A stretch of 38,857 bases of DNA, from positions 1 to 38,857 of IMG/VR virus record IMGVR_UViG_3300023116_000111. One strand, given 5' to 3'. Positions within the stretch are counted from its first letter, which is position 1, and every line of letters begins with the position of its first letter. Made by a program: the position numbers and the translations under genes. Below are positions 2,285 to 38,068 of this stretch, in pieces. This DNA is from a virus. The notes under the pieces were generated by a model. The model was not told the DNA's origin. It did no database searches and saw only the letters and a list, made by a program, of their open reading frames with translations.

Positions 2285-2719
2285 ATGGCAAAGAAATACA
2301 GAAACTCTAGTGTTCCTAGAACCAAAAGAGTATATAACGATGAGGATAAAACTATTGTAGATACACGAGTTCCTAATCTAAATGGAGTACGCGAGTATAT
2401 ACAACCAGTTCATAACGCTAAAGATAAGACTTCAGTATGCAAGTACTGTAGCAAGAACTTAGTGCGTGGCTATATATGCTACGATTGCAGGGAGTTAGAA
2501 GCCCCTGTAAAGCGTACCAGTATAGAAGAAAGACTTGCTATAGAAGAAGGCTTAAAACTATTAGCAGAAATTCGTGCTAACGAAAGCGTTATAAGACAAG
2601 ATGATATGGTTAATAATACTATAGCGAAAGCTAGTGTATTAGAAACTATAGATAACTTTTGTAAAAGCTGTGGTATTAATATTGCACCAGACTTACAGGG
2701 TTGCGAGTTTTGTAAATAA
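2285..2719 (+). CDS. Double zinc-ribbon protein, 144 aa
   Basis: Two treble-cysteine clusters are visible: C52-x2-C55 with C65-x2-C68 in the middle, and C126-x2-C129 with C140-x2-C143 at the extreme C terminus. The rest is charged and basic at the N terminus. Such zinc ribbons bind nucleic acid or act as protein docking modules, but no particular family is recognised. The start is supported by AGGTGA 5 bases upstream. The gene sits alone between a candidate operator-promoter and a 430-bp hairpin array. A regulatory or host-transcription role is a guess from the zinc ribbons and the isolated, early-type position. Confidence 0.8.
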   Translation: MAKKYRNSSVPRTKRVYNDEDKTIVDTRVPNLNGVREYIQPVHNAKDKTSVCKYCSKNLVRGYICYDCRELEAPVKRTSIEERLAIEEGLKLLAEIRANESVIRQDDMVNNTIAKASVLETIDNFCKSCGINIAPDLQGCEFCK

Positions 2720-2720
2720 T

Positions 2721-3043
2721 ATATAGCTCGCTATCTACTGCAATTCATAATTCCTGACTAGGTGCCTTTCACTTATTGCACTACCTAGTCGCAGTAGGTA
2801 GCGTAGTACTCATACACCTATGCTGTGTTCTAAAGTAGTATGTGTAAATGTTATCAGCAGTGTGAGTACTACGCTACATTGGTATGTAGCTTGTAGCACA
2901 TAGATAATGTCGGGTACCATAAATATAATGACCTCTATCGTGTGTTACAAGCTATATAAGTAGGTAGCTTGTAGTACATACGCTTACTGCAGTAAGTAAA
3001 AGACAGTAACTCTATGAGCCAATGTATGTACTACGAGCTATAT
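2721..3043 (+). ncRNA. Tandem array of four long hairpins
   Basis: HP1: 2729-2741 pairs with 2791-2803 (13 bp, one wobble) around an inner 8-bp stem 2756-2763 with 2783-2790. HP2: 2798-2812 with 2863-2877, 15 perfect pairs. HP3: 2887-2900 with 2941-2954, 14 bp with one G-U. HP4: 2965-2981 with 3024-3040, 17 bp with one U-G, containing a 14-nt palindrome in its loop. HP2-HP4 are diverged copies of one unit (TAGC, optional TT, GTAG, then AC) at about 80-nt spacing. Their base changes are compensatory, and HP2 lacks two bases in both arms. ATATAGCTCG at 2721-2730 can also pair with CGAGCTATAT at 3034-3043 to close the array. Length, repetition and covariation point to selection on a folded nucleic acid. 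The function is unknown. Confidence 0.6.
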
Positions 3044-3054
3044 GAGGATATAGC

Positions 3055-3149
3055 AAGTGTTAGTAAAATGACACTTATACGTGTAGTGAAGCCGTAGTAG
3101 TAGGAGTAAATACTTTCCCCTGTTGTATGTACCACCGAAACTACGGCTT
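3055..3149 (+). ncRNA. Two further hairpins leading into the zinc-ribbon operon
   Basis: AAGTGT at 3055-3060 pairs with ACACTT at 3071-3076. AAGCCGTAGT at 3089-3098 pairs perfectly (10 bp) with ACTACGGCTT at 3140-3149. The second ends 5 bases before ATGAAAGGATAG and 20 bases before the start at 3169, so it sits in the 5' leader of the operon and may control its translation or stability. Confidence 0.5.
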
Positions 3150-3168
3150 TGCTAATGAAAGGATAGAT

Positions 3169-3324
3169 ATGGTATGTGATAATTGTAGGCAAGGTACTTA
3201 TACCAAGCTAGCAATACATAGCAATGTTAAGAGTAGTGTGCATATTATTGTGCAGTGCTTTGAGTGTGGCTATCAAACTATAAAGAAAGAGAATAGTAAA
3301 AGAAGATTGGAGAATATTGTATGA
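3169..3324 (+). CDS. Zinc-ribbon microprotein, 51 aa
   Basis: The chosen start is ATG 3169, with GAAAGGA about 6 bases upstream. An in-frame ATG at 3127 lies inside the loop of the 3089-3149 hairpin and is less likely. The protein is a four-cysteine ribbon (C3-x2-C6 and C30-x2-C33) followed by a basic tail (KKENSKRRLENIV), a common layout for small nucleic-acid-binding proteins. It opens the operon that runs to 7811 and overlaps the next gene by ATGA. Function is not known; nucleic-acid binding is inferred from the ribbon and the charge. Confidence 0.7.
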   Translation: MVCDNCRQGTYTKLAIHSNVKSSVHIIVQCFECGYQTIKKENSKRRLENIV

Positions 3325-3548
3325 AAGAACCATACGAGATGATAAGTACAAGTAACGAGGACACTAATGTACTTACAATAGACTTCACTTTCACTAGTGA
3401 AGTAGATAAGGAAGATGCAGTAGCTTGCATAGACAATATGGTATCAATGCTAGATGATAGTACTGATGCTACTGCAAAAGAATTGCTTGACCATAAGCCT
3501 ACTTTCTTTGTAACAAGTAGGTGGAATGCTATAGAGGAGAGTGAGTAA
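3321..3548 (+). CDS. Uncharacterised acidic 75-aa protein
   Basis: A small acidic protein with a central beta-type segment (VLTIDFTFTS) and a helical, aspartate-rich middle. No family is recognised, and no cysteines suggest metal binding. The start overlaps the previous stop as ATGA, and its own stop overlaps the next start as TAATG, so it is clearly part of the operon. The high acidity would suit a DNA-mimic or inhibitor of a host protein, but nothing specific supports that. Confidence 0.7.
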   Translation: MKEPYEMISTSNEDTNVLTIDFTFTSEVDKEDAVACIDNMVSMLDDSTDATAKELLDHKPTFFVTSRWNAIEESE

Positions 3549-3688
3549 TGGAAGAAGTAGAAATCATACAGCAACTATGGGAGTGCTTACGCAGAGGATA
3601 TACCTATCGTGAGGCACAACTTCATATGAAAGCGTATGGCGAAGGAAAGAATACAGTTAAGAAAGTAGTAGTGATAGAAGATGCCTGA
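3548..3688 (+). CDS. Small 46-aa protein, possible HTH-like fold
   Basis: This short gene is read from ATG 3548 (TAATG overlap with the previous gene) to TGA 3686-3688, which overlaps the next start at 3681. The sequence is helical with a turn (LRRGYTYREAQLHMKAYG) that looks like the 'resolvase-like' or sigma-type short HTH found in small phage regulators, followed by a basic strand. The overlap on both sides is the best evidence that it is translated. DNA binding is inference. Confidence 0.6.
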   Translation: MEEVEIIQQLWECLRRGYTYREAQLHMKAYGEGKNTVKKVVVIEDA

Positions 3689-3905
3689 TACAAAAAAAGA
3701 GTGTGATATAGTATCGTATTTTCATTGTGCTACTTGCTTACCACAAGTACCAAAGGGTGTATCCCCTGCTGAGTGGAGTAGCCAACAAGCAGGTTGGACT
3801 AGATATGGTATGCAAGTGTGGTGCAATCGTTGTGATAAGGAAATAATTGCTATTGACTTTGATAAGGTTGCAGAACTATTAAACGAGGAGAAGAAAGATG
3901 AGTGA
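3681..3905 (+). CDS. Zinc-ribbon protein, 74 aa
   Basis: C16-x2-C19 and C48-x2-C51 form a likely zinc ribbon, with aromatic residues between (EWSSQQAGWTRYGMQVW). The C-terminal 20 residues are acidic and helical. The family is not recognised. It overlaps both neighbours in the operon. As with the other ribbons here, a nucleic-acid or protein-docking role is possible but not shown. Confidence 0.7.
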   Translation: MPDTKKECDIVSYFHCATCLPQVPKGVSPAEWSSQQAGWTRYGMQVWCNRCDKEIIAIDFDKVAELLNEEKKDE

Positions 3906-6107: not shown

Positions 6108-6130
6108 CTTATTTAGAAAGAGTGCTACAA

Positions 6131-6156
6131 ATGTAGGTGGTATGTTCCACCTACAT
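6131..6156 (+). other. Perfect 10-bp hairpin between the ATPase and VWA genes
   Basis: ATGTAGGTGG at 6131-6140 pairs perfectly with CCACCTACAT at 6147-6156 around the loop TATGTT. It has no T run, so it is not an obvious terminator. The 5' arm contains AGGTGG, a ribosome-binding-like sequence that would be hidden in the stem. It lies 14 bases before the next start and probably tunes the ratio of the two proteins or protects the mRNA. Confidence 0.6.
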
Positions 6157-6170
6157 TAGTAAATCTTTCT

Positions 6171-7811
6171 TTGCGTGGTGATAAGGTTAGAAAGTTTAGA
6201 GTTCGTAGAGGCACTAGCTTAGTACCTACTAGCAGAAACGAATTGATACTTCCTTATTATCAGTGTGCTAATGAATACAACGAACAAGTATTGCTTAATA
6301 CTGCAATAACAAAGATGAAGTTGTTTAGAGATATGAAGTTTCGTACTAAGGAACTAGACATATTGCACATAGCACAATTCTTATTTGCTAACAAGTACCA
6401 TAGAGAAAGTGCTAAGAGAAGAGCTAATAAGATAGCAAGGTCATTGGGTTATAGCAACTATTGGGAGTATGACAAATACTTAACTGATGTAGAAGGAGTA
6501 AGAGAACTAACTAAAAACGAAAGAAAGTTTATGTCTCTTATGTACAACACATTGGGTATGATGAGGCAAGAACAAGCAGACTTGATAGCCAAAGAGGTAA
6601 TCAAGAAAATACTTGCTGATGATAACATACTAGAAGTATATAAGTATTATGTTAAGAAAACTGCTTTTGCAGGACAACCTAGACTTATAGACTACGAAGA
6701 TGCTAAGTCATACATTAAGTCAATACTAGAAATGAGATACCCTGTAGGTAGTAGGGTACCTACTATGATAATAGACCAAGATTGTTCTAGAGTATATAAC
6801 ATACTGAACTCATTGTTCTATGGTATTCACGAAGCACAGTCTTACATTTATTGGACAAGTTTTCGTGGTTCTATGTATTACGATAGAGATGAACACCTAT
6901 GGCAACATAGGAAAATAAGTAATTCTTCTATAAGGAGAAGAGTTAATAAGCTAGTAAAAATGCTTTCTAATCCATTTGAAGCAGTAAGAAGTAGTATGCG
7001 ATTAACAAAGATGCTTACTTCTGAAGGTACTATCAGACTAGATGGCGAGGAATACCTAGCACAACTAGAAGAAATGGATAGTATTGCTGAGGAAGCTGAT
7101 GGTATTACATTACCAGAAGGAATTAGTGAGGAACTTGCTAAGCAAATCATTGATGATAGTGAGCAACAATATGAAAGACACTTCATTAATTACTGGGGTG
7201 GCGACACTAGTGGTATGCACGGAGTAGCAAAGATACACAAATTCACACCTACTAATACTATACACAAAGCAGTTAGAGAAATTGCTAAGCGTAATAGTGA
7301 TAGAGGTGTTGTTCCTAAACATATGCATCGTATGACTACTGACAAGAAAGTCTTTGCAAATAAGACTACAGTAGCAGGTGGCTCAATGATGATAGACTGT
7401 AGTGGTTCTATGTCTTTATATGAGGAAGACATACGAGAAATTATTGACTATCTACCTGCATCTAACATAGCTGGCTATGTAGGATACAACAGTAAGATAG
7501 ATGGCTACGATGGTATGATAAAGATTATAGCTAAAGATGGTCGTATTGATACTCACGCTATACGAGACCTAGAAGAGTATGGTGCTAACTCAGTAGATTT
7601 AGATGGTCTAAAGTGGCTAGCACAACAACCAGAACCTCGTATATGGGTAAGCGACCAACAAGTAGTAGGTGTAAATGAAAGTGGTACTGCAATAAATCTA
7701 AGCAAAGAAAAGAGAGATGAGATTGCTAGGTTTATGAGAAGACATAACATAATACCTATTCGTGTAGTAGAACAAGTAAAGAAATTATCAAAACAATTAG
7801 GTACTAAGTAA
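6171..7811 (+). CDS. VWA (MIDAS) domain protein partner of the AAA ATPase
   Basis: A 546-aa protein with a basic N terminus, a long helical middle (about 50-330), and a C-terminal von Willebrand factor A domain. The metal site DxSxS is D409-C-S411-G-S413, and D495 in RIWVSDQQ fits the last metal ligand. VWA proteins paired with MoxR/CobS ATPases act as metal-dependent adaptors that pass substrates to the ring, as in CobS-CobT or RavA-ViaA. The start is odd: TTG at 6171 without a visible ribosome binding site. The frame, which equals that of the ATPase, has stops at 6105 and 6114 and no ATG or GTG before 6171. The first in-frame ATG is near residue 49, which would lose conserved-looking sequence. 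Confidence 0.82.
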   Translation: MRGDKVRKFRVRRGTSLVPTSRNELILPYYQCANEYNEQVLLNTAITKMKLFRDMKFRTKELDILHIAQFLFANKYHRESAKRRANKIARSLGYSNYWEYDKYLTDVEGVRELTKNERKFMSLMYNTLGMMRQEQADLIAKEVIKKILADDNILEVYKYYVKKTAFAGQPRLIDYEDAKSYIKSILEMRYPVGSRVPTMIIDQDCSRVYNILNSLFYGIHEAQSYIYWTSFRGSMYYDRDEHLWQHRKISNSSIRRRVNKLVKMLSNPFEAVRSSMRLTKMLTSEGTIRLDGEEYLAQLEEMDSIAEEADGITLPEGISEELAKQIIDDSEQQYERHFINYWGGDTSGMHGVAKIHKFTPTNTIHKAVREIAKRNSDRGVVPKHMHRMTTDKKVFANKTTVAGGSMMIDCSGSMSLYEEDIREIIDYLPASNIAGYVGYNSKIDGYDGMIKIIAKDGRIDTHAIRDLEEYGANSVDLDGLKWLAQQPEPRIWVSDQQVVGVNESGTAINLSKEKRDEIARFMRRHNIIPIRVVEQVKKLSKQLGTK

Positions 7812-7819
7812 GTATCTCG

Positions 7820-7857
7820 TAGCCTAAGTAGTCAATCTCCGTTTCCTGCTTAGGCTA
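7820..7857 (+). other. 9-bp hairpin after the VWA gene
   Basis: TAGCCTAAG at 7820-7828 pairs perfectly with CTTAGGCTA at 7849-7857. It lacks a T run and lies just ahead of the terminator, so it may protect the 3' end of the operon transcript. Confidence 0.5.
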
Positions 7858-7875
7858 TAGGATATTTATTTTAAA

Positions 7876-7931: not shown

Positions 7932-7986
7932 TTATGCATATGCATAAGCATTTTATTTTTTTTCTTATATGCATATGCATAAGCAT
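7932..7986. repeat. Two direct copies of an 18-nt palindromic element upstream of the HTH gene
   Basis: ATGCATATGCATAAGCAT occurs at 7934-7951 and again at 7969-7986, 35 bases apart. Each contains the 12-nt palindrome ATGCATATGCAT; in the first copy this extends to a perfect 16-nt palindrome, 7932-7947. The spacing is about 3.3 helical turns. The pair lies directly upstream of an HTH gene, the position of an operator used for autoregulation. Iterons of an origin are the alternative. Confidence 0.65.
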
Positions 7987-9440: not shown

Positions 9441-10226
9441 ATGGCGTTTAATTTAGATAACTACGAAACAGTAGAAGACAGGCTAAAAAAGTTTTGGTCT
9501 GATAATCCTAATGGTAGGATTGAAACTCACGTTGCAAAGATTAATGATGAGGGAACTATGGTAATTGTTAAAGCTTTAATATATAAAGACTTTGATGATG
9601 AGAAAGCCGTAGCAACAGGGTATGCACAAGAATACAAAGGTCAAGGTGGCTTTGCTAATAACGAGGCTTGGTTAGAAAATTGTGAAACATCTGCTATAGG
9701 TAGAGCATTAGCTAACTGGAAGTATCAAGGAACTGATAAAGCTAGACCTAGTAAAGAAGAAATGAAGAAGTCAAGTGGCTCAAGCACGAAAGGTGAAACC
9801 AATATTAAAGCACCGCAAGCAACGCCTAAAGAAGGAGTAGTAGCCGCCTCATCTACTACTCCATCTTTAGTTAAAGGTCCTATAAAGGAACTTACTGATG
9901 CAGGGTATAGCGTTAAAGATAGGAACCATCCAACAGGTGAGTTAGCTATAGATGATATAGGGTTATGGTGTCCTTGTGGTGGTGCAGTTAAGTATGTACC
10001 TGTAGCTGAAAAGAAATCAGATAAGTCACCAGACTTTAGATGCATTATGGCTTCTAAGTGTACAGCAGGAGATACTGTAGATGGTAAAGTATTTTCTAAG
10101 TCTTGGTGGGTAGATAATAAAATTACTCCTAAGTCTTGGAATGACTATGCAGGTGTACAGAATGGTATATTTATGCCTAAAGCTAAATCATTAGATGATG
10201 TTAAGGAAGGCGAGGCACCTTTCTAA
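9441..10226 (+). CDS. ERF-type single-strand annealing protein with C-terminal zinc ribbon
   Basis: The N-terminal 100 residues carry the hallmark of the ERF family of phage recombinases, LENCETSAIGRALA at about 78-91, after a beta-rich start. ERF proteins coat single-stranded DNA and anneal complementary strands. A low-complexity Ser/Thr/Lys linker (about 105-150) leads to a C-terminal domain with C177, C179, C201 and C207, a likely zinc ribbon that could bind DNA. AAGGAGG 7 bases before the ATG is the strongest ribosome binding site of the plus arm, so the protein is probably abundant, as an annealing protein should be. The next gene overlaps by TAATG. Confidence 0.82.
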   Translation: MAFNLDNYETVEDRLKKFWSDNPNGRIETHVAKINDEGTMVIVKALIYKDFDDEKAVATGYAQEYKGQGGFANNEAWLENCETSAIGRALANWKYQGTDKARPSKEEMKKSSGSSTKGETNIKAPQATPKEGVVAASSTTPSLVKGPIKELTDAGYSVKDRNHPTGELAIDDIGLWCPCGGAVKYVPVAEKKSDKSPDFRCIMASKCTAGDTVDGKVFSKSWWVDNKITPKSWNDYAGVQNGIFMPKAKSLDDVKEGEAPF

Positions 10227-10363: not shown

Positions 10364-10405
10364 AGCAAGAGCCGAGGTAGAAAGGATAACACCCTCGGCT
10401 TTGCT
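10364..10405. terminator. Bidirectional terminator between converging arms
   Basis: AGCAAGAGCCGAGG at 10364-10377 pairs with CCTCGGCTTTGCT at 10393-10405, with one bulge and one G-U. It lies between the plus-strand operon end (10351) and the minus-strand holin stop (10413). It has no long T run on either side, so termination may be partial or aided by convergent transcription. Confidence 0.7.
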
Positions 10406-10412
10406 ATTGAAA

Positions 10413-10622
10413 CTACTTACTTGCTTTCTTTGGAGTAGGCGATACTTTATTCTTAGCAAAAGATTTTAATACTGATAGTACTGCAGCACCACCAGCTAAA
10501 GCAGCAACTTCTAATGTACTAATATCAACACCTAATGCTGGTGTGATTACTAATGTAGAAGCAAATGTTTCTACAAATGTCCATAAACATCTTTCAATTA
10601 AGTCTTTATATTCTTCACTCAT
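10413..10622 (-). CDS. Putative holin, r1t-like, 69 aa
   Basis: A short membrane protein: a tryptophan-containing first hydrophobic segment (WTFVETFASTLVITPALGV), a short polar turn with ISTLEVA, a second hydrophobic segment (ALAGGAAVLSVLKSF), and a basic tail. This matches the layout of r1t-type holins, known from lactococcal and actinobacterial phages, which open the inner membrane. The adjacent upstream gene codes the amidase and overlaps it by 4 bases, the usual holin-endolysin pairing. It is the last gene of the late transcript. Confidence 0.75.
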   Translation of the reverse strand: MSEEYKDLIERCLWTFVETFASTLVITPALGVDISTLEVAALAGGAAVLSVLKSFAKNKVSPTPKKASK

Positions 10623-29373: not shown

Positions 29374-31122
29374 CTATCTACCTTTAATGTATCTGCCAAT
29401 GTTACCGAGGTTGGTAAGAAGATTAGCAAAAGTATTATTATAAAGACCTGTAGCTCTCTGACCTTCCAACATTGGACCATATTTATCTCTCACAAACTGG
29501 TCAAACTCTTGACCTATAGCTGCACCCATTTGTTCCTGTGGAACTATTCCCTGCAATTCTACTTCTTGTTGATAATCAGAACCAGTTCTAGCTAACATAG
29601 CTCTATCTCTTTCAGCAGCAATCAATGCTTCTGTGTTGCTTTGATTAATATCAAAGTTAGATTTCTGTATATCGTAAGATAACTTACTTACATAATCTGC
29701 ATAAGCTGCTAGTTCGTAATCACTTGCAGGTCTTCCTAGTCCTTCTTCAATTGCAGCACCAATAGTACTTTTAACTGAATAAGGACTTGGATTAATATAT
29801 TTAAATAAAGATTGGTAATTTAAACCTGAGGCTTCTGAGGCTTCAAACTTATCATTACCATAACTATAATCTTCTAAAGTATCTTTAAAGAACTCTTTAA
29901 TAAATACTGTTAAGTTTTGTGCAGTTGCACCTGGTGTCAACAAGATAGAATATAAATCTTCTTGCGTTATAGTTTCACCATTTAAATTGAATCTAGACAT
30001 TGCAGATTCAATAGCCTGTATTGTTCCACCATCATTATCATCTAGTACTCCATAAACAAAACTAAATGGTTGTAAAAATCCTGCTTCAACTAATAACAAC
30101 TGTATTTCCATTATTTCATCAGGACTTGCATTAGCAAACAATTGCCTACCTAATCCATATTCATATAATGGTTCTTCTCCATCACCATAAACTTCTTGTA
30201 TTAATGGTGTAGATATTCCGTAGTAATCTGTTCCAGTTAAACCTAATGCTTGGCTTCTTAAATAGTTATCTGTAATGTTTTCATTTATTTGAGATAATCC
30301 TGCTGTAATACCTGCAGTACTACCTTCATCAATTATTTGACCTTCCAATGTTTTTATAAATACTTCAGGGTCAATGTTGTTGATTTTAAGTATTCTGTCT
30401 ATTTCTCTTAAATAAGTTTCTTTACTTATTTTACCGCTTTCTAATGCAGCTAATAACCCTTCAGCATTTTCTCTGTCATAGTATTGGAATGCTTGTTCTC
30501 TATACAAATCATCTCTTAAATCTTTTTGTAAATATGCTTTTCTTGCTAAGTCTGATTCTTCTGAGTAATTATTAACAAGTTCTATTGAAGCATCTTCTAC
30601 TGATATAACTATATCTCCTGGGTCTTTACCTTGTAATACAGCGTCTATCATTGCATCGTGATGGTCACCTGCTGCATTTGCAATAGTTCTTAAATCTTTA
30701 GGAGGTGTAATTTCATATAAGTAATTAAAACCTTCTTGTATCTCTGGTTCTAAATCAACCCAAGCTCTACCTAAACTATAAGAAATCATATTAATATATT
30801 GCTGATAACTCATACCTACATCTTCTGTAGGCTTTGGTACATCAACACCTTCAGGTGCCATACCTACTCCTGATACGCCTCTACCTATTGCAGCTATACC
30901 ATCAGCAACAATTTCTTTCCAAAGAATATTAGGAACCCAACCAAATACTTTCCAAAAGTCTGCTAATTTATCTTCATCTATATTTTTTCTATTGAATTTA
31001 ATGTCACGCATAATATCAAGTATTGTTCTTCTATAACTTTGATATGGTATGTTTTTTCTGTTATTTAAAATATCTTCTAAAACATCTTGTTGTTCAGGCG
31101 TTAATTCATTATCTTCAGCCAC
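29374..31122 (-). CDS. 582-aa virion-type protein with a peptidoglycan-binding-like segment
   Basis: Mostly helical. Residues about 330-380 (EIMEIQLLLVEAGFLQ, then FVYGVLDDNDGGTIQAIESAMSRFNLNG) have the pattern of a PG_binding_1-like repeat: a leucine-rich helix, a glycine, an aspartate-rich turn, then a helix with T-x-x-A. The C terminus is rich in Gln and Asn. It ends next to the lysozyme-like gene and overlaps the 2317-aa gene by 8 bases. A role with the lysozyme in crossing the cell wall is plausible. The binding segment is a weak match. Confidence 0.65.
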   Translation of the reverse strand: MAEDNELTPEQQDVLEDILNNRKNIPYQSYRRTILDIMRDIKFNRKNIDEDKLADFWKVFGWVPNILWKEIVADGIAAIGRGVSGVGMAPEGVDVPKPTEDVGMSYQQYINMISYSLGRAWVDLEPEIQEGFNYLYEITPPKDLRTIANAAGDHHDAMIDAVLQGKDPGDIVISVEDASIELVNNYSEESDLARKAYLQKDLRDDLYREQAFQYYDRENAEGLLAALESGKISKETYLREIDRILKINNIDPEVFIKTLEGQIIDEGSTAGITAGLSQINENITDNYLRSQALGLTGTDYYGISTPLIQEVYGDGEEPLYEYGLGRQLFANASPDEIMEIQLLLVEAGFLQPFSFVYGVLDDNDGGTIQAIESAMSRFNLNGETITQEDLYSILLTPGATAQNLTVFIKEFFKDTLEDYSYGNDKFEASEASGLNYQSLFKYINPSPYSVKSTIGAAIEEGLGRPASDYELAAYADYVSKLSYDIQKSNFDINQSNTEALIAAERDRAMLARTGSDYQQEVELQGIVPQEQMGAAIGQEFDQFVRDKYGPMLEGQRATGLYNNTFANLLTNLGNIGRYIKGR

Positions 31123-34100
31123 TATAAACTCCTCCGAGGTTCTCTTCTTCTATTTCAAGTCTAAATAAATCATACCATATATAGTAGAAGTCAGGGTACT
31201 GCATCATAAGTTGTTTAGATATTGTACTTAAATACTGTCTTGCTTGTTTAGCTTCAGACCTATTTAAAGATGCATTAGCACCAAACTCTGATTTTATACC
31301 GTTAAGTATGCTTTGTCTTGCTGCTAAGTATTGCATAGCACCTTGTACTGATGGTAAATCTTCTATCTTTACAGATGAACCATCAGGCAATGTAACTGTT
31401 TTACCTGCTTCATTATTTATCATTGAAACAAATTGTTGTATCTTAGCTTCTGTTTGCATAGGTCTTTGTACAGTAGATGTAGTTCCATATCCTACAAACT
31501 TGTTTTGTAAATCTAATTTAGTTAAATATAATTGTTCAAATTTTTTGTCAATTGGTATAGAGGCATAAACATTTGTATCTAATAACAATCTTCTAGCATT
31601 CTCATAAGCTAAAGAACCTTGTGCTTGTCTAACAGCTTGTTTAAATTGTGTATCAGTTAGGTCTACTCTTTTACCTTCTGTAAATGAATCAGCCCAGGCT
31701 TGATAATCAAATTCACCTAAAGGACTATCAGGGAATAAGTAATATGATATATCTGGGTATCTATCCATTATTTCTTTATTTTGTTTGTAAAAATATCCGC
31801 CTTCTATTGTATAACTTGTAGCTTGTATTTTTTTAGATTTAGATACAAGCAATGCTGAAGGGTCAAAGCCAAATGTTCTTATAAAGTCTGCAGTAGCAGT
31901 AACTCTATCTCCACCTCTACCAGCCAACATTTGATAGTAAGCATCTGAAAATAAAGTATCTGCAAAGTATTTATGACCTGGGTCTGTATTCTTTGCTTTC
32001 CAAGGGTCTAAGAATGCTACACCTTCTGGACCTACTTCATATTCATAATTAACTACAGCAGGAGATGGTGCAACGAATGCAATAAATGCTTGGTATTTAA
32101 GCATTGAGTTAGCTAACTTTCTAGCTTGTTCTAAACTTTTTTGTTCTGCTTCAGGAGTACTATCATCATAAATACCAGATATGAACATAGCTCTCTGTAT
32201 ATCTTTAACTCTATTTGCATAAGCTCTTTGTAGCTCAGGACTAGAACTACCACCTAATGCACGTAATCTATTTATCCAAGTAGGTAATGCAGCATCAACA
32301 TAATATGTTGGGTCTGCTGGTGAATACTGTGGTCTACCATATGGGAACAACGCTTGGTCAATTCCTTTAGTAGAAGGTAATACTGCTGATGCAGGTAGAG
32401 ATACTAGCGGTCCTAAACCAGGAACTACAGAACCTGCAACCATATTTAAACCACTAGCGTAACCTTCTATACGTGCATTAACATTAGGTGCTGTAATATC
32501 TTTTGCACCTGTTACAGGATTTATTATTGAATCTTCAGGATTGAGATTTTTTAATTGTCTATCTAATTTATTATTTAAACCAAATCCAGGTGCATTGTAC
32601 ATTTCTTCCCCTGTCTGTGGGTCAGTAGTAAAGAAACCTTCATCATCTTGTTCTCCAAATATGCTAGGTTCTCTTGCACCTTCTATACCTCTTTGTATTT
32701 TTCTACCGAATAAAGTCTTTTGACCTTTAAGTAATCTAGTCCAAGTACCAGCTATTTCTAGATAAACTTCTGCGAATGGAAATGCTAAACGTAACATATC
32801 AGATATAGCGTGACGTTTATTTAAATCATATAGTAAAGATTTAGTTTCTTCTAATGCATAGGCTTTAGCTAATGTATCTATTTGTTCTATATCGTTAATT
32901 CCTACTTGTTTAGATACATCTGCAAAACCCATACCTTCTAAGTTCTTAATATATTTATCTGCTCTAGAACCTTTTCTATATTTACCCATAGCTTGTTTAG
33001 CTCTTGGTAATATATATGCTCTAGCTGCATCATCCATATTTGCATAGGCACTTTCAATAAATCTCCAGTAATACTGTCTAAAAGCTGTTGACCTAGACAA
33101 TTCATTAGTAGATGCACCCATTAAAGTAGAGAATAAAGTTTCTAATACTTGATTGTATTGACTTAATCTATCTCCATCCATATCGTATCTAGATGCTTTG
33201 ACCTTAAAGTTTTTACTATCAATAACATCTGTTTTAAAGTTTTTAAGCCAAGTACTATATGAGTTAAATTCACTACGTGTCATATTGCGTGTAAAGTTTC
33301 TAGTCACATAGTCATTAGCTTTCTTACTAAATATATTTACAACTCTTTCACCAGGTTTTTCAAATGCACCTGTTGATATATGTTCTATAAGTTCTCTGTC
33401 ACCACTTTCTTTAATTACATATTTTATTGGGTTTTTAATTTCAGTTACAGCAGGATTAGTTGCATCTATTAGTTTTTCTACACCATTAGGTAGTATTTCG
33501 TATGCTTCATACTTACCGCCTGTTTTCACGTGTATTCTTGCAACTATCGAATCAACATAAGAATCAGAGTATGCTCTGTTTTTATTTATTAAGTTTTTTA
33601 AAAATCTACTTGTATCATCTGAGTTACCTACATATGCTTTACGCCATTTACTTAATTCACCATCCCAGAATGATTGTTTAATTTGTGCAACTGACTCTCT
33701 AAATTTAACTGGGTCTTTTACAGGGTCTACATTTATTTTTGCTATAAGAGGTGCAATAGGGTCATCAGCTAATTGTAATAATTCAGATGCCCAACCCCCA
33801 TAAAATCCAGGGTCGCCAACTTTCTTAGTTACAAAGCCACGACTTCTTCTTGGGTCAATACCAAACATAACACCATTATGTGTATTAGACATAGCTTCTT
33901 GATGAAAGAAACTATTTTCCATTGTGTCGTCTAATATATCTGTATTACCTCTACCCCAATTTTCTGTTAACCAATGTCTACCTTTTTCTCTACTACTCAA
34001 AAAGAATTGTCTATTTCTTTGTGGTGTTCTACCAAATATCCAAGCAAAAGCAGATAAAGGATGTGCAAATACATTGTCTAGTCCATCTGCCCACATTCTT

Positions 34101-37100
34101 ATTTGCTCTTCTCCTACGACCCTTGTAACCCAAGCTGGACGTAATAGAATAGAAGGTTTCCATAGTAACTGCATATAGCCATCACCAATAGCTGTAAGCA
34201 TACCTTCAGTAATCTTTGCTACATCTGTACCATCAGTATTTAATTTAATATTAGTTCTAGTCTTACCTACTAATCTTCTTATGCTTTCGTACATATTTCT
34301 ATCAGCACCTTTAACTTCTAGTTTTGCTAAATCAGTTATAGGTTTAGCTAATAACTTGTCATATGCTTCATCTGTAATGTTCTTAGCTCTACCAGTAAGT
34401 CTTAAATGTAAATCTCTCATAGGTCTAAATACTCTTAAAAACAACCTTGCATCAGGCATAGGTATATAACCTTCATCCCAATACTCAGAAAGCAAATGAG
34501 CTGTAGCTCTAGGATTGTATGCTCTTTCAGTTCTTTTACCAGATTTAGTTAAAAGAAATTCTTCATATACAGAGTTAAGTACATCTGCTGTATCATCTTC
34601 TAAAGTAGAAATCTTTCTAAGTTGTGATAAATTTTCTTCTAATACTGTATTTAATTTACCTAAAGTTACTCTTTGATTTTTTGTTTGGAAGTACATTAAA
34701 TCTTCCATCACATTTTTCATTAATGCTTGTTGAACATTATCTATTTCTGAACTACCAACAATATTTAATTTTCTTACTTTATTTCTGTATAAAAATTGTT
34801 GTATCTCTTTTATTTGTTCTTTAGAAGTAGTTTTAGATAAATTAATTACAGCGTATGGTTTATTACCTTGATATACACCTGTCTTTAATTTAACTGGTAC
34901 ATCTTGTAAAGTACCTGTGTCTAAGTAATTCTTAATAGAATTTAAATTTTTACTTGCTGCACCTGTAGTAAATATTAAAGTACCGTCAGTTTGTTCTATA
35001 TTAGATTTAACAACATTACCTAATTCATCTTTAGGATTTATTGCACCCCAATCTTTACTCCAATAATCAGGGTCATAAACTTCTTTGCTTTCTAATATTT
35101 CATTAGCTTTCTTATAAGAAGGTAATGTTTCACCAATCTCTTTATCTAATTTAGCTATTCTTTGTGCTATAAGTTTTCTATCGTTAACTAAATTTTCTCT
35201 AACTGTTTTAATAGGTGGACCTGCTGCTACTTTTGTAACGTCACCTAATTCATCTTGTACTGTATTTTTCGGCTCAATACCTTTTCTAAAATCTCTTGTT
35301 CTATATCTAATATTTGTTTGTATTTCTTTTGTAATTTGATTAAGAGCATCTTCTTTTAATTTATTTAATCCAATAATTATTTCTTCTGGATTTGCTTCAA
35401 CTTCGCTAACCTGCATATAAGTTTTTCTATACCATTGCATATTTGTAGGATTTACTGCATACTCAGCTTCAATACGTGCAATATCAGCATTTATATTTTC
35501 TATAGCATTATCAATAGAGTTAATTACTTTTTTAGCATCTTCTATCTGTTGTATTTTATTTTGTACAGCAGTACGTTCTTTTCTAGGTAGAGAATTTATT
35601 TCATCTTTACTACCTTGTAATGCTTCTTCTCTAATTTTTCCGTATTCAACTTGTGCTTTATATTCGTCTGCATCTTTAAAATCATCTAGACCTAACTCTT
35701 TCATTCTTCTAGACAAATTATCAAATCTTGAACCTTGAGCTACATCAACTTCTATTAATCTAAAAGTTGTACCTTTTTCAGTTTTAACTGCATCAAACAA
35801 TTGTTCTCTAGTTAATCCAGTTTTAGTTAATGTATCTTCTAACAAAACACCTTTATTAGGATTTGTAAATATATCCATAGGTATACTTCTTATTTTTGAT
35901 ATTTCAACAACTGCATTATCGTATAAAAACTTTTCACCTTTTTTCACATTTTTAAATGTTTTTAATCCATCTACTGTATCAGGTATTGCAGATACAGAAC
36001 CATCAGCAATTTTTTCTATTGGTGTAGTTGCAGCATATTTTAAACTTATATCTTGTAAATTTTGCTTATTAGGTATATCTGCATCAGGCACTGTCATACC
36101 TTTAGATACTCTACCTTTAGTATTTATACCTATCTCTTCTGCAATATTTAATGCTTCACGTTCTGCACCGTTATAAAAACCTGACCACAATTCATCAATT
36201 AACAATCTAGTTTCTACAGCAGTTTGGTCATTAGATATTTCTTTTACTTGTGCAACTATATCTTCTACATCTTTTGTTATTACTTCAGAACTACCTTTAA
36301 ATTTACTAAGTACTTTTTCAATAACAGTTACAGTATCATCATCAGTTAAAAATTCAGAAAAGTCTTGTTTAATTAACTTAGGTATCTCTTCAAATTTAGA
36401 ACCAGGAAACCATTCAAGTTCACCTAATTCGTTTACAAAGTATCTATGTGTTTCATCTACAGATGCCATCCATCGTTTAATACCTTTCATAAGTTGTGGA
36501 GGTAAATCTATTGCTTCAAACTTTTCTCCAATGTGATTAAGTACATCATTCCATATATCAAGAATGTCACCCATATTTTGTAATGATTGTGCTTCATCAG
36601 GATTTAACATTTGATTTTCTGCTAAGTCTGCTAATTTATCTAAAGCAGGGTTAGCTATACTATCATCTACTTTTGCCCACTTCATCCATTGTTTTAAATC
36701 AAAGAATGATTGGTTCATATCTTTAACATTTAACTTTGGTACAGGAAACTCAGAAAATAATCTACCTAATGCAGAATCTGCTTGTGTTTTTTTAATTGCA
36801 CCTACTAAACCTGTTGCTTTACCAAAATCACCAGCTACATATCCACCTAATGTACTTGATACAGAACCACGCATTAATAATGAATTAGGGTCTAATCTCT
36901 TAAACTTTACTTGTTCTTCTATAGCTGGTATTAATAAATTGGTAACTTCTTCTCTTGACTTTGCATTCTTTAATCCTTTATGCAATGCAGCATCACCTTG
37001 GTTTTTTAACAATCTACCAACAGTATCAAAATCTTCTGCTAAAACTAATTGGTCAACAATTCTAGTACCACCTTTTGTGCTAGTTAAATATTCTGTAGCA

Positions 37101-38068
37101 GATGGAACGTGTATAGTTTTTCTAACTGCTTTATCAATTACTCCTGCACTCTTTAATACATCAGCTTGTGATAATGACCTAACTGCTTTACCTGCTTTAT
37201 TTAAATAACTTCCTATAAGTATTGATGGGTCTGCAACTAAAGTAAATGCACCATCAATAAGACCAGACATTATGTTGTAACCTTTAGTGCCAGGTTCTAA
37301 TATAGATGCAGTTAATGGTGCAGCAGGTGTTAATTTAGTAGTACCAAATCTAGTTTGTATAGTAAGACTTTCATCACGTTCTCTTTCTCTATTTGTAATG
37401 TCTTGACCATAATATGTTTGCACAATATTCTTTGCAGATTGGTCATCTATTCCTCTACCTACTAATTCTTTATATACATCTGTATCTTCAGCTAAAGTAG
37501 AATTTGGAAAGTAACCTTCACCTAAGTTTACTTTTTTTCCTGCTGCTAAATTTTGTAAAGCTATTCTACCTGTAGAAGGACCTAGCTTATCTCTTACAGC
37601 ACCTAGTTCTTTTCTAGCATCATCACTAATTAGCAGTTGTAATGAAGCACCTAAAATACCAGTACTATCTCTGTATTTTTTTTGGTTTAAATACTTTTGA
37701 TATGCTAATACTGGTTTTTTAACTATCTCATCTTGTAAAGAATCAAATGCAGTAAATGCTGTTCTAATTGTTCCTCTACCAACTGCTTTAACTCTATCCC
37801 ACCAAGTCTTTTCTACATCTAACCAACGTTCAACTATTGTTGCTATCTCTGGCGAATCAGCAGTTAAGTTCATTAAAGATGCACCAACTAATACATCTTT
37901 AGGTAAATAAAAATGTTCATCAACTAATGATTTTAAATTTTGTGCTGTTTGAGGTACAGAGTTAACCATACCTTCAATAACCTTAGCTTGTTCAATACGA
38001 TTATTTTGTTGAGTTTCTTCTATCTCATCTTGTACAGGTGATTGCCACCACCATCTTATTTCAGCCAT
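31115..38068 (-). CDS. 2317-aa giant virion-type protein with an internal YpsA-like SLOG domain
   Basis: The start (MAEIRWWWQSPVQDE) leads into helical regions with a hydrophobic stretch SGLIDGAFTLVADPSILIG near 265. At about 1005-1125 lies YDPDYWSKDWGAINP, NIEQTDGTLIFTTGAASKN, KPYAVINL, and FLYRNKVRKLNIVGSSE. This is the order of the cpYpsA SLOG family (SDGTLIF, KP..V.L, LNVAGPRES), a Rossmann-like domain that senses nucleotide-derived ligands. The later half has segments such as RPAWVTRVVGEEQIRMWADGL and FPFAEVYLEIAGTWTRLL, recalling internal proteins of marine phages. Inferred: an ejected multidomain protein made as part of the virion. It is 6954 bases, about 18 percent of the window. Confidence 0.7.
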   Translation of the reverse strand: MAEIRWWWQSPVQDEIEETQQNNRIEQAKVIEGMVNSVPQTAQNLKSLVDEHFYLPKDVLVGASLMNLTADSPEIATIVERWLDVEKTWWDRVKAVGRGTIRTAFTAFDSLQDEIVKKPVLAYQKYLNQKKYRDSTGILGASLQLLISDDARKELGAVRDKLGPSTGRIALQNLAAGKKVNLGEGYFPNSTLAEDTDVYKELVGRGIDDQSAKNIVQTYYGQDITNRERERDESLTIQTRFGTTKLTPAAPLTASILEPGTKGYNIMSGLIDGAFTLVADPSILIGSYLNKAGKAVRSLSQADVLKSAGVIDKAVRKTIHVPSATEYLTSTKGGTRIVDQLVLAEDFDTVGRLLKNQGDAALHKGLKNAKSREEVTNLLIPAIEEQVKFKRLDPNSLLMRGSVSSTLGGYVAGDFGKATGLVGAIKKTQADSALGRLFSEFPVPKLNVKDMNQSFFDLKQWMKWAKVDDSIANPALDKLADLAENQMLNPDEAQSLQNMGDILDIWNDVLNHIGEKFEAIDLPPQLMKGIKRWMASVDETHRYFVNELGELEWFPGSKFEEIPKLIKQDFSEFLTDDDTVTVIEKVLSKFKGSSEVITKDVEDIVAQVKEISNDQTAVETRLLIDELWSGFYNGAEREALNIAEEIGINTKGRVSKGMTVPDADIPNKQNLQDISLKYAATTPIEKIADGSVSAIPDTVDGLKTFKNVKKGEKFLYDNAVVEISKIRSIPMDIFTNPNKGVLLEDTLTKTGLTREQLFDAVKTEKGTTFRLIEVDVAQGSRFDNLSRRMKELGLDDFKDADEYKAQVEYGKIREEALQGSKDEINSLPRKERTAVQNKIQQIEDAKKVINSIDNAIENINADIARIEAEYAVNPTNMQWYRKTYMQVSEVEANPEEIIIGLNKLKEDALNQITKEIQTNIRYRTRDFRKGIEPKNTVQDELGDVTKVAAGPPIKTVRENLVNDRKLIAQRIAKLDKEIGETLPSYKKANEILESKEVYDPDYWSKDWGAINPKDELGNVVKSNIEQTDGTLIFTTGAASKNLNSIKNYLDTGTLQDVPVKLKTGVYQGNKPYAVINLSKTTSKEQIKEIQQFLYRNKVRKLNIVGSSEIDNVQQALMKNVMEDLMYFQTKNQRVTLGKLNTVLEENLSQLRKISTLEDDTADVLNSVYEEFLLTKSGKRTERAYNPRATAHLLSEYWDEGYIPMPDARLFLRVFRPMRDLHLRLTGRAKNITDEAYDKLLAKPITDLAKLEVKGADRNMYESIRRLVGKTRTNIKLNTDGTDVAKITEGMLTAIGDGYMQLLWKPSILLRPAWVTRVVGEEQIRMWADGLDNVFAHPLSAFAWIFGRTPQRNRQFFLSSREKGRHWLTENWGRGNTDILDDTMENSFFHQEAMSNTHNGVMFGIDPRRSRGFVTKKVGDPGFYGGWASELLQLADDPIAPLIAKINVDPVKDPVKFRESVAQIKQSFWDGELSKWRKAYVGNSDDTSRFLKNLINKNRAYSDSYVDSIVARIHVKTGGKYEAYEILPNGVEKLIDATNPAVTEIKNPIKYVIKESGDRELIEHISTGAFEKPGERVVNIFSKKANDYVTRNFTRNMTRSEFNSYSTWLKNFKTDVIDSKNFKVKASRYDMDGDRLSQYNQVLETLFSTLMGASTNELSRSTAFRQYYWRFIESAYANMDDAARAYILPRAKQAMGKYRKGSRADKYIKNLEGMGFADVSKQVGINDIEQIDTLAKAYALEETKSLLYDLNKRHAISDMLRLAFPFAEVYLEIAGTWTRLLKGQKTLFGRKIQRGIEGAREPSIFGEQDDEGFFTTDPQTGEEMYNAPGFGLNNKLDRQLKNLNPEDSIINPVTGAKDITAPNVNARIEGYASGLNMVAGSVVPGLGPLVSLPASAVLPSTKGIDQALFPYGRPQYSPADPTYYVDAALPTWINRLRALGGSSSPELQRAYANRVKDIQRAMFISGIYDDSTPEAEQKSLEQARKLANSMLKYQAFIAFVAPSPAVVNYEYEVGPEGVAFLDPWKAKNTDPGHKYFADTLFSDAYYQMLAGRGGDRVTATADFIRTFGFDPSALLVSKSKKIQATSYTIEGGYFYKQNKEIMDRYPDISYYLFPDSPLGEFDYQAWADSFTEGKRVDLTDTQFKQAVRQAQGSLAYENARRLLLDTNVYASIPIDKKFEQLYLTKLDLQNKFVGYGTTSTVQRPMQTEAKIQQFVSMINNEAGKTVTLPDGSSVKIEDLPSVQGAMQYLAARQSILNGIKSEFGANASLNRSEAKQARQYLSTISKQLMMQYPDFYYIWYDLFRLEIEEENLGGVYSG

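Follow-up and report, generated by a model that had tools for sequence, protein, structure and literature searches.

Which molecule is read from a chain of hairpins lying between two phage genes, and what keeps its folds in place, is the question raised by the window, by which we mean the whole stretch of 38,857 nucleotides that was analysed (IMG/VR record IMGVR_UViG_3300023116_000111).

Extent and fold of the array

A sequence-only reading of the window had placed four hairpins, HP1 to HP4, in 2721-3043 and regarded HP2, HP3 and HP4 as diverged copies of one unit. All four were recovered where that reading had placed them. The element was found to continue to approximately 3165 through HP5, HP6 and a terminal domain termed module A, which the earlier reading had missed. 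The array thus consists of seven hairpins, and linkers between them are nearly absent. Its parts are as follows.

2720..3165, + strand: whole hairpin array, seven near-abutting hairpins, reaching from the stop codon of the ORF at 2285-2719 up to the next gene's ribosome-binding site
2730..2802, + strand: HP1, arms 2730-2741 and 2791-2802, retained in four diverged relatives
2798..2877, + strand: HP2, arms 2798-2815 and 2860-2877, with a conserved segment at its apex around GUGUUCUA
2887..2954, + strand: HP3, exchangeable unit with arms UAGCUUGUAGCACAUA and UGUGUGUUACAAGCUA
2965..3040, + strand: HP4, exchangeable unit whose insert is a cassette
3037..3054, + strand: HP5, 7-bp hairpin with a GAGG loop (GCUAUAU-GAGG-AUAUAGC), overlapping the 3' arm of HP4
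3055..3076, + strand: HP6, short hairpin with both-side changes at 4 of 5 compared pairs
3086..3152, + strand: module A, with a covarying outer stem, an AGUA/GAA internal loop, GG:CC, a second stem and a CCCUGUU apical loop
3158..3172, + strand: ribosome-binding site (AAAGGA) directly after the array, followed by what is likely the true start of the next gene, an ATG at about 3169

Folding of the 441-nt array gave -160.3 kcal/mol on the + strand (z -9.1), as opposed to a z of -5.2 on the - strand. For 2700-3060 the corresponding values were -129.3 kcal/mol (z = -6.2, with none of 100 shuffles as good) and -108.3 kcal/mol (z = -5.0). No tandem direct repeats were reported by Tandem Repeats Finder in 2600-3300.

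The length and content of the array differ widely among relatives. Its smallest form, in L012, is approximately 255 nt long and contains HP1, HP2, HP5, HP6 and module A with hardly any linker. Relative to L012, the window carries HP3 and HP4 as additions between HP2 and HP5, while L004 and L002 have one unit at this site. Two further proposals of the sequence-only reading, a closing pairing of 2721-2730 with 3034-3043 and mutually exclusive HP1 and HP2 stems that share an overlap, apply to the window and its nearest relatives but not to the diverged L012, L005 and L010, where the hairpins simply abut. The arms of adjacent units match, so that stems next to each other can swap partners, the HP1/HP2 overlap being one case of this.

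Relatives of the array

Among isolate phages there was no DNA match to the window and no near relative. Relatives were sought with the two flanking proteins as queries and by pattern scans of IMG/VR. The proteins led to 16 loci with an equivalent intergenic region, some of these loci being one contig; scanning for the pattern of module A added about 20 contigs, that of a second conserved domain (module B, below) added 12, and that of the arms common to HP3 and HP4 returned at least 120 stretches. Once near-identical arrays had been removed, about 107-115 remained. The major capsid protein of the window is encoded by 24 of 29 contigs tested, at 39-89% identity, which indicates that array carriers belong mostly to one phage family. 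The carriers are a family of phages of roughly 40 kb, whose capsid protein, as represented by that of the window, is only about 28% identical to those of actinobacterial phages; other proteins gave mixed distant matches.

Two carriers deserve separate mention. The IMG number of L213 (IMGVR_UViG_2823602183_000220) is unlike that of a metagenome, and unlike nearly all others, and may indicate a host. The contig of L111 (G028, 61,944 bases) has two capsid genes, 89% and 64% identical to that of the window, and its assembly may be mixed or joined.

Covariation of the stems

The stem of HP2 was compared in four diverged relatives. In these, 47 of 48 cells were paired and both sides had changed at all 12 positions, the letters of the stem in L012, L005 and L010 being wholly unlike those of the window. 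In HP1 both-side changes were observed at 5 of 11 base pairs in the same four relatives, with one bulged base in L010. Variants of HP5 are GCUAUCU..AGAUAGU and GCUAUGU..ACAUAGC.

The outer stem of module A was compared over 51 distinct sequences in an alignment fitted to the model. Standard pairs were formed in 96.2% of cells and both-side changes were found at 13 of 13 pairs. The stem had 272 both-side changes, whereas shuffles averaged 74, with none of 500 reaching 272, and slid controls gave 3-53; these pair counts refer to model R2, for which the structure was given by hand. A hand alignment of 14 module A sequences agreed, with eight consecutive pairs of three to five pair types each and none broken.

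The selected structure that the sequence-only reading had inferred from copies within the window is accordingly supported by covariation across related phages, in the stems of both HP2 and module A. Its account of the individual arms was also accurate: two bases are missing from both arms of HP2, and from HP3 to HP4 a C-G pair becomes U-A, G-U becomes G-C and U-A becomes U-G. The description as diverged copies of one unit holds for the arms of HP3 and HP4 but not for their inserts, which are unrelated, nor is HP2 a plain copy of the two, as its apical part rides on quite different stems in relatives. The absence of a named family was borne out by Rfam, none of whose families reached threshold either for the window or for 25 related loci.

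Evidence for RNA of the sense strand

The + strand folded better than the - strand in 20 of 20 arrays. When folding was performed with G-U pairs forbidden, the mismatches remaining inside helices were G-U in 53 cases and A-C in 1; in a G-U-blind fold of the same type, restricted to one array per group, the ratio was 33:1 (p = 4e-9). Neither DNA palindromes nor antisense RNA would produce such a ratio.

This count weighs most heavily on the proposal that the units are palindromic mobile or recombining DNA repeats (MITE- or REP-like) without function as RNA, or a cruciform in the DNA (an origin or packaging site, for instance). Inverted-repeat arms with variable inserts, in units that duplicate and swap, are what such elements would produce. 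A preponderance of G-U over A-C is unexpected for DNA palindromes. Further points against the proposal are that units, with few exceptions among the cases examined, keep to a single array on each contig, that the covariation of module A surrounds invariant unpaired loops, and that the stems of HP2 diverge completely yet continue to pair. We regard the proposal as very improbable. A cruciform or palindromic mobile element is thus strongly disfavoured, mainly by the 53:1 count. With respect to its anatomy, the locus is almost certainly a conserved structured RNA array read from the sense strand.

An invariant domain present at most once per contig

AGUA, opposite GAA, was present in 51 of 51 distinct module A sequences and CCCUGUU in 48 of 51, although these counts are not independent, as both motifs were in the search patterns, and are thus in part so by construction. 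In sequence, AGUA/GAA corresponds to the bulged-G (loop-E) motif known from folded RNAs. No contig examined had more than one module A. Of 79 contigs that bear arms or cassettes, the domain was detected in 38; those without it may be fragments or diverged. Some arrays carry it at their 3' end, others at their 5' end. A consistent complement to the apical CCCUGUU was not found within arrays, and a scan of bacterial genomes returned three matches to module A, all without the flanking stem. Module A is the invariant core, or hallmark domain, of the array and probably binds a fixed partner via its AGUA/GAA and CCCUGUU loops.

Exchange of cassettes between conserved arms

Units of the HP3/HP4 type have in common the arms UAGCUUGUAGCACAUA and UGUGUGUUACAAGCUA, in which G-U and U-G pairs are kept, while their inserts differ and span 30-173 nt. 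A total of 293 such units was counted over both strands, corresponding to about 146 distinct units; after the same halving, the inserts fall into about 75 families, roughly half of them singletons. The insert of HP3 is replaced in L002 and L004. That of HP4 recurs in six other phages (L117, L122, L133, L169, L172 and L099), and the inner stem of this cassette covaries (CUUACUGCAGUAAG / CUUUCUGCAGAAAG / CUUAUUGCAAUAAG).

Comparison of individual arrays indicated how inserts move. L045 and L057 differ by a replaced insert, on whose two sides they are 92% and 95% alike. Conversely, L103 and L032 have a 152-nt cassette that is 97% alike, in arrays that are otherwise unrelated. Module B, a second highly conserved domain of the form AAGGUUGGAAAC..CAUAUAAACA..UUCCAGUUUG with covarying inner stems, was located in HP3 of L002 and in L025, L030, L032, L041 and L094-L105; it recurs at 89-96% on unrelated outer stems and had no Rfam match. 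Matches to the arms were confined to one array per contig in the 21 contigs searched, and in a few loci, e.g. L151, the units are spread over about 1.7 kb. The hairpins other than module A are exchangeable cassettes mounted between conserved arms.

tRNA- and tmRNA-like cassettes

At a permissive threshold the 3' ends of the L131 and L195 arrays matched tmRNA (RF00023) with 38.2 and 37.9 bits (E 8.9e-12 and 6.5e-12), scores that lie below the Rfam gathering score. T-arms were also identified in other inserts. The two sets of loci are given here.

L131 1584-1666 and L233 3312-3394 (part of the L195 contig), minus strand: tRNA-like domain of tmRNA, 83 nt, at the 3' end of the array
L123 about 3240-3345 and L205 about 3665-3765: insert with a tRNA-like fold that includes a T-arm; ARAGORN made no call there

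In L131 and L195 both ends of the tmRNA model are matched, and an acceptor stem with G3-U70 (read from the sequence), a D-loop region and a T-arm are present. The domain ends in CUU in place of CCA. An mRNA-like tag frame and pseudoknots were absent from it, the matched ends being separated by 36 nt as compared to 326 in the model. The helix in between covaries between the two loci (GAGUAUG/CAUACUC and GAGUGUG/CACACUC). Some phages are known to carry a complete tmRNA gene (PMC9004378); the cassette has the tRNA-like acceptor and T-arm in common with tmRNA (ssrA) but lacks the tag part and pseudoknots and is embedded at the end of an array.

The T-arm of L123 is GUAGG-UUCAAAU-CCUAC, and the insert in L123 and L205 has an 8-nt loop where an anticodon loop would be. 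Over 107 arrays, 12 T-arm motifs were found in sense and 1 in antisense, with a mean of 1.0 and a maximum of 6 in shuffles; several of the 12 are homologous and make up about five families. ARAGORN called no tRNA gene in the window and 40 array loci. Most cassettes showed no resemblance to a known RNA, and the remaining Rfam matches, to miRNA precursors, were read as generic matches to long hairpins.

Genomic context and a possible role in cis

Arrays are located mostly inside a gene cluster, on its sense strand and between co-directional small early genes. Based on coding density this was the case in 98 of 115 raw calls, a count that is a lower bound because some calls are opposite-strand duplicates or chance pattern matches. 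Their start lies about 10-20 nt past a stop codon, and several phages have a ribosome-binding site where the array ends. Given co-directional genes on both sides, a stop codon before and often a ribosome-binding site after, the arrays are probably co-transcribed. In the window an ORF called at 3127-3324 overlaps module A; its real start is probably the ATG at about 3169, after AAAGGA, and alignments with homologues mostly begin at residue 12-15 of the ORF as called.

The array comes before a 65-aa zinc-ribbon-like gene in the clade of the window and is found farther downstream in G009-G011; the proteins that flank arrays belong to many families. Because neighbours vary among relatives, a fixed role of the locus for one neighbour gene is unlikely. 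The gene nearest the array had no Pfam match, and PADLOC returned no match, to a defence gene or to a toxin gene, among ten neighbouring proteins.

The setting suits a cis-acting operon element, in which RNase III-type processing or stability sites, or sites of termination or antitermination, would set the flanking early genes and the inserts would be passengers. Such a role is the main rival to action in trans, which is taken up below, and is a possibility that we consider real, if less than probable. It is consistent with the co-directional flanking genes, with the stop codon a few nt before the array and the ribosome-binding site at its end, with a T-run after module A in the L025 group and with outer stems that reach 18-29 bp at their longest. 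Neither processing nor termination, however, needs invariant AGUA/GAA and CCCUGUU loops or a single module A per genome, and swapped structured cassettes with tRNA-like members are not required for either. The changing neighbours of the array and the 3'- or 5'-terminal position of module A also speak against this role, as does the window itself, where no terminator-like site was found in 2400-3400.

Possible role in trans

In view of the tmRNA-like domain in two relatives and the T-arms of other cassettes, the reading that we tentatively favour is that of a structured RNA acting in trans and presenting protein-binding or decoy domains. The array RNA would be made from the sense strand as part of the early operon transcript, and module A would bind one fixed partner through its internal and apical loops. 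Recombination at the conserved stem arms would account for the duplication, loss and swapping of cassettes among phages. The RNA would then act in trans, its long stems possibly protecting or releasing the domains, and the cassettes, some of them tRNA- or tmRNA-like, may bind, or act as decoys for, the RNA-handling or RNA-based defence machinery of the host. The data above show structure at the RNA level in the sense strand, its conservation, a core present in one copy, the exchange of cassettes and the existence of tRNA-like members; action in trans, the partners, the decoy role and processing are what we infer. The location of the array amid a gene cluster, shortly after a stop codon and ending at a ribosome-binding site, suits a role in cis as well and to that extent counts against action in trans. 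The lack of a defence-gene match beside the array, the dissimilarity of most cassettes to known RNAs and the detection of module A in 38 of the 79 contigs likewise count against a trans-acting decoy.

A more specific form of the trans-acting model is an RNA cassette island, that is, an invariant-core scaffold loaded with exchangeable domains, several of them tRNA- or tmRNA-like, that would act as changing decoys against RNA-dependent machinery or defences of the host. This we consider unlikely, and if true it would represent an RNA counterpart of anti-defence gene islands.

Precedents for phage RNA mimics are provided by pseudo-ToxI (PMC3475682) and the RNA anti-CRISPRs (PMC10651486). Pseudo-ToxI of phage PhiTE is a non-coding RNA that mimics an antitoxin and evolves by repeat expansion and recombination (PMC3475682). 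It and the array are alike as phage RNAs with recombining units, although mimicry belongs to pseudo-ToxI and is for the array part of the trans-acting model, and ToxI consists of 36-nt pseudoknot direct repeats, whereas the array consists of long hairpins with no tandem direct repeat and no toxin gene match. RNA anti-CRISPRs (Racrs) are phage-encoded small RNAs that mimic host RNA (PMC10651486); they are solitary units resembling CRISPR repeats and not a chain of hairpins. REP and MITE palindromes occur as dispersed copies, unlike the arm matches in the 21 contigs searched.

Comparison with large phage RNAs

The array was compared with GOLLD and ROOL, with which it has in common that it is phage-encoded, non-coding, elaborate in its covarying structure and not assigned a function. 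An "ornate" RNA of this type would assemble into one compact particle or cage with peripheral domains that can be exchanged, and after a role in cis it is the next alternative to be weighed, albeit an improbable one. In its favour the array is phage-borne, non-coding, highly structured and present at a single locus per genome, and GOLLD sets a precedent of a conserved 3' part and a variable 5' part, sometimes with tRNAs in the linker (PMC12286853). Against it, no gathering-level Rfam match to GOLLD, ROOL or OLE was obtained in the window or 25 related loci, and none was listed for 2600-3330 at E up to 10. The apical CCCUGUU lacks a consistent partner within the array, and length and content vary widely, down to the minimal form of L012. 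Whereas GOLLD and ROOL each form one large fixed fold, the array strings separable hairpins together, with cassettes that can be exchanged and a single small domain that is invariant.

A description of such an array was not found in the open-access literature, subscription journals being outside the scope of the search, and Rfam 15 holds no fitting family. As an architecture, exchangeable RNA-hairpin cassettes combined with an invariant core appear, within that scope, to be of a new kind. If large phage non-coding RNAs without assigned function are counted as one kind, the array would be another form within that kind. The array belongs to a class of structured RNA that had not been catalogued. 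Many IMG/VR phages of one family carry such RNA, and its defining features are a small invariant domain and the exchange of cassettes between structured hairpins. Should the cassettes be functional mimics, these phages hold a recombining store of RNA effectors in which each cassette family points to a testable host RNA-binding target. Even with a role in cis, the array would add a new case of modular RNA evolution and provide annotation with a clear covariance model.

Other features of the window

A G+C-rich hairpin at 10365-10404 is located exactly between rightward genes that end at 10226 and a leftward block that starts at 10413, and is likely a shared terminator; it also gives a weak chance match to the R2 model. 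Further inverted repeats with arms of 15-26 bp, at 6126-6161, 7806-7871 and 7932-7982, lie in the gaps between early genes or at gene ends, and at first sight have no sequence kinship to the array. In the structural gene block, 31115-38068 encodes a 2317-aa protein with a match to a SLOG-like cpYpsA domain (Pfam, E 1.8e-8).
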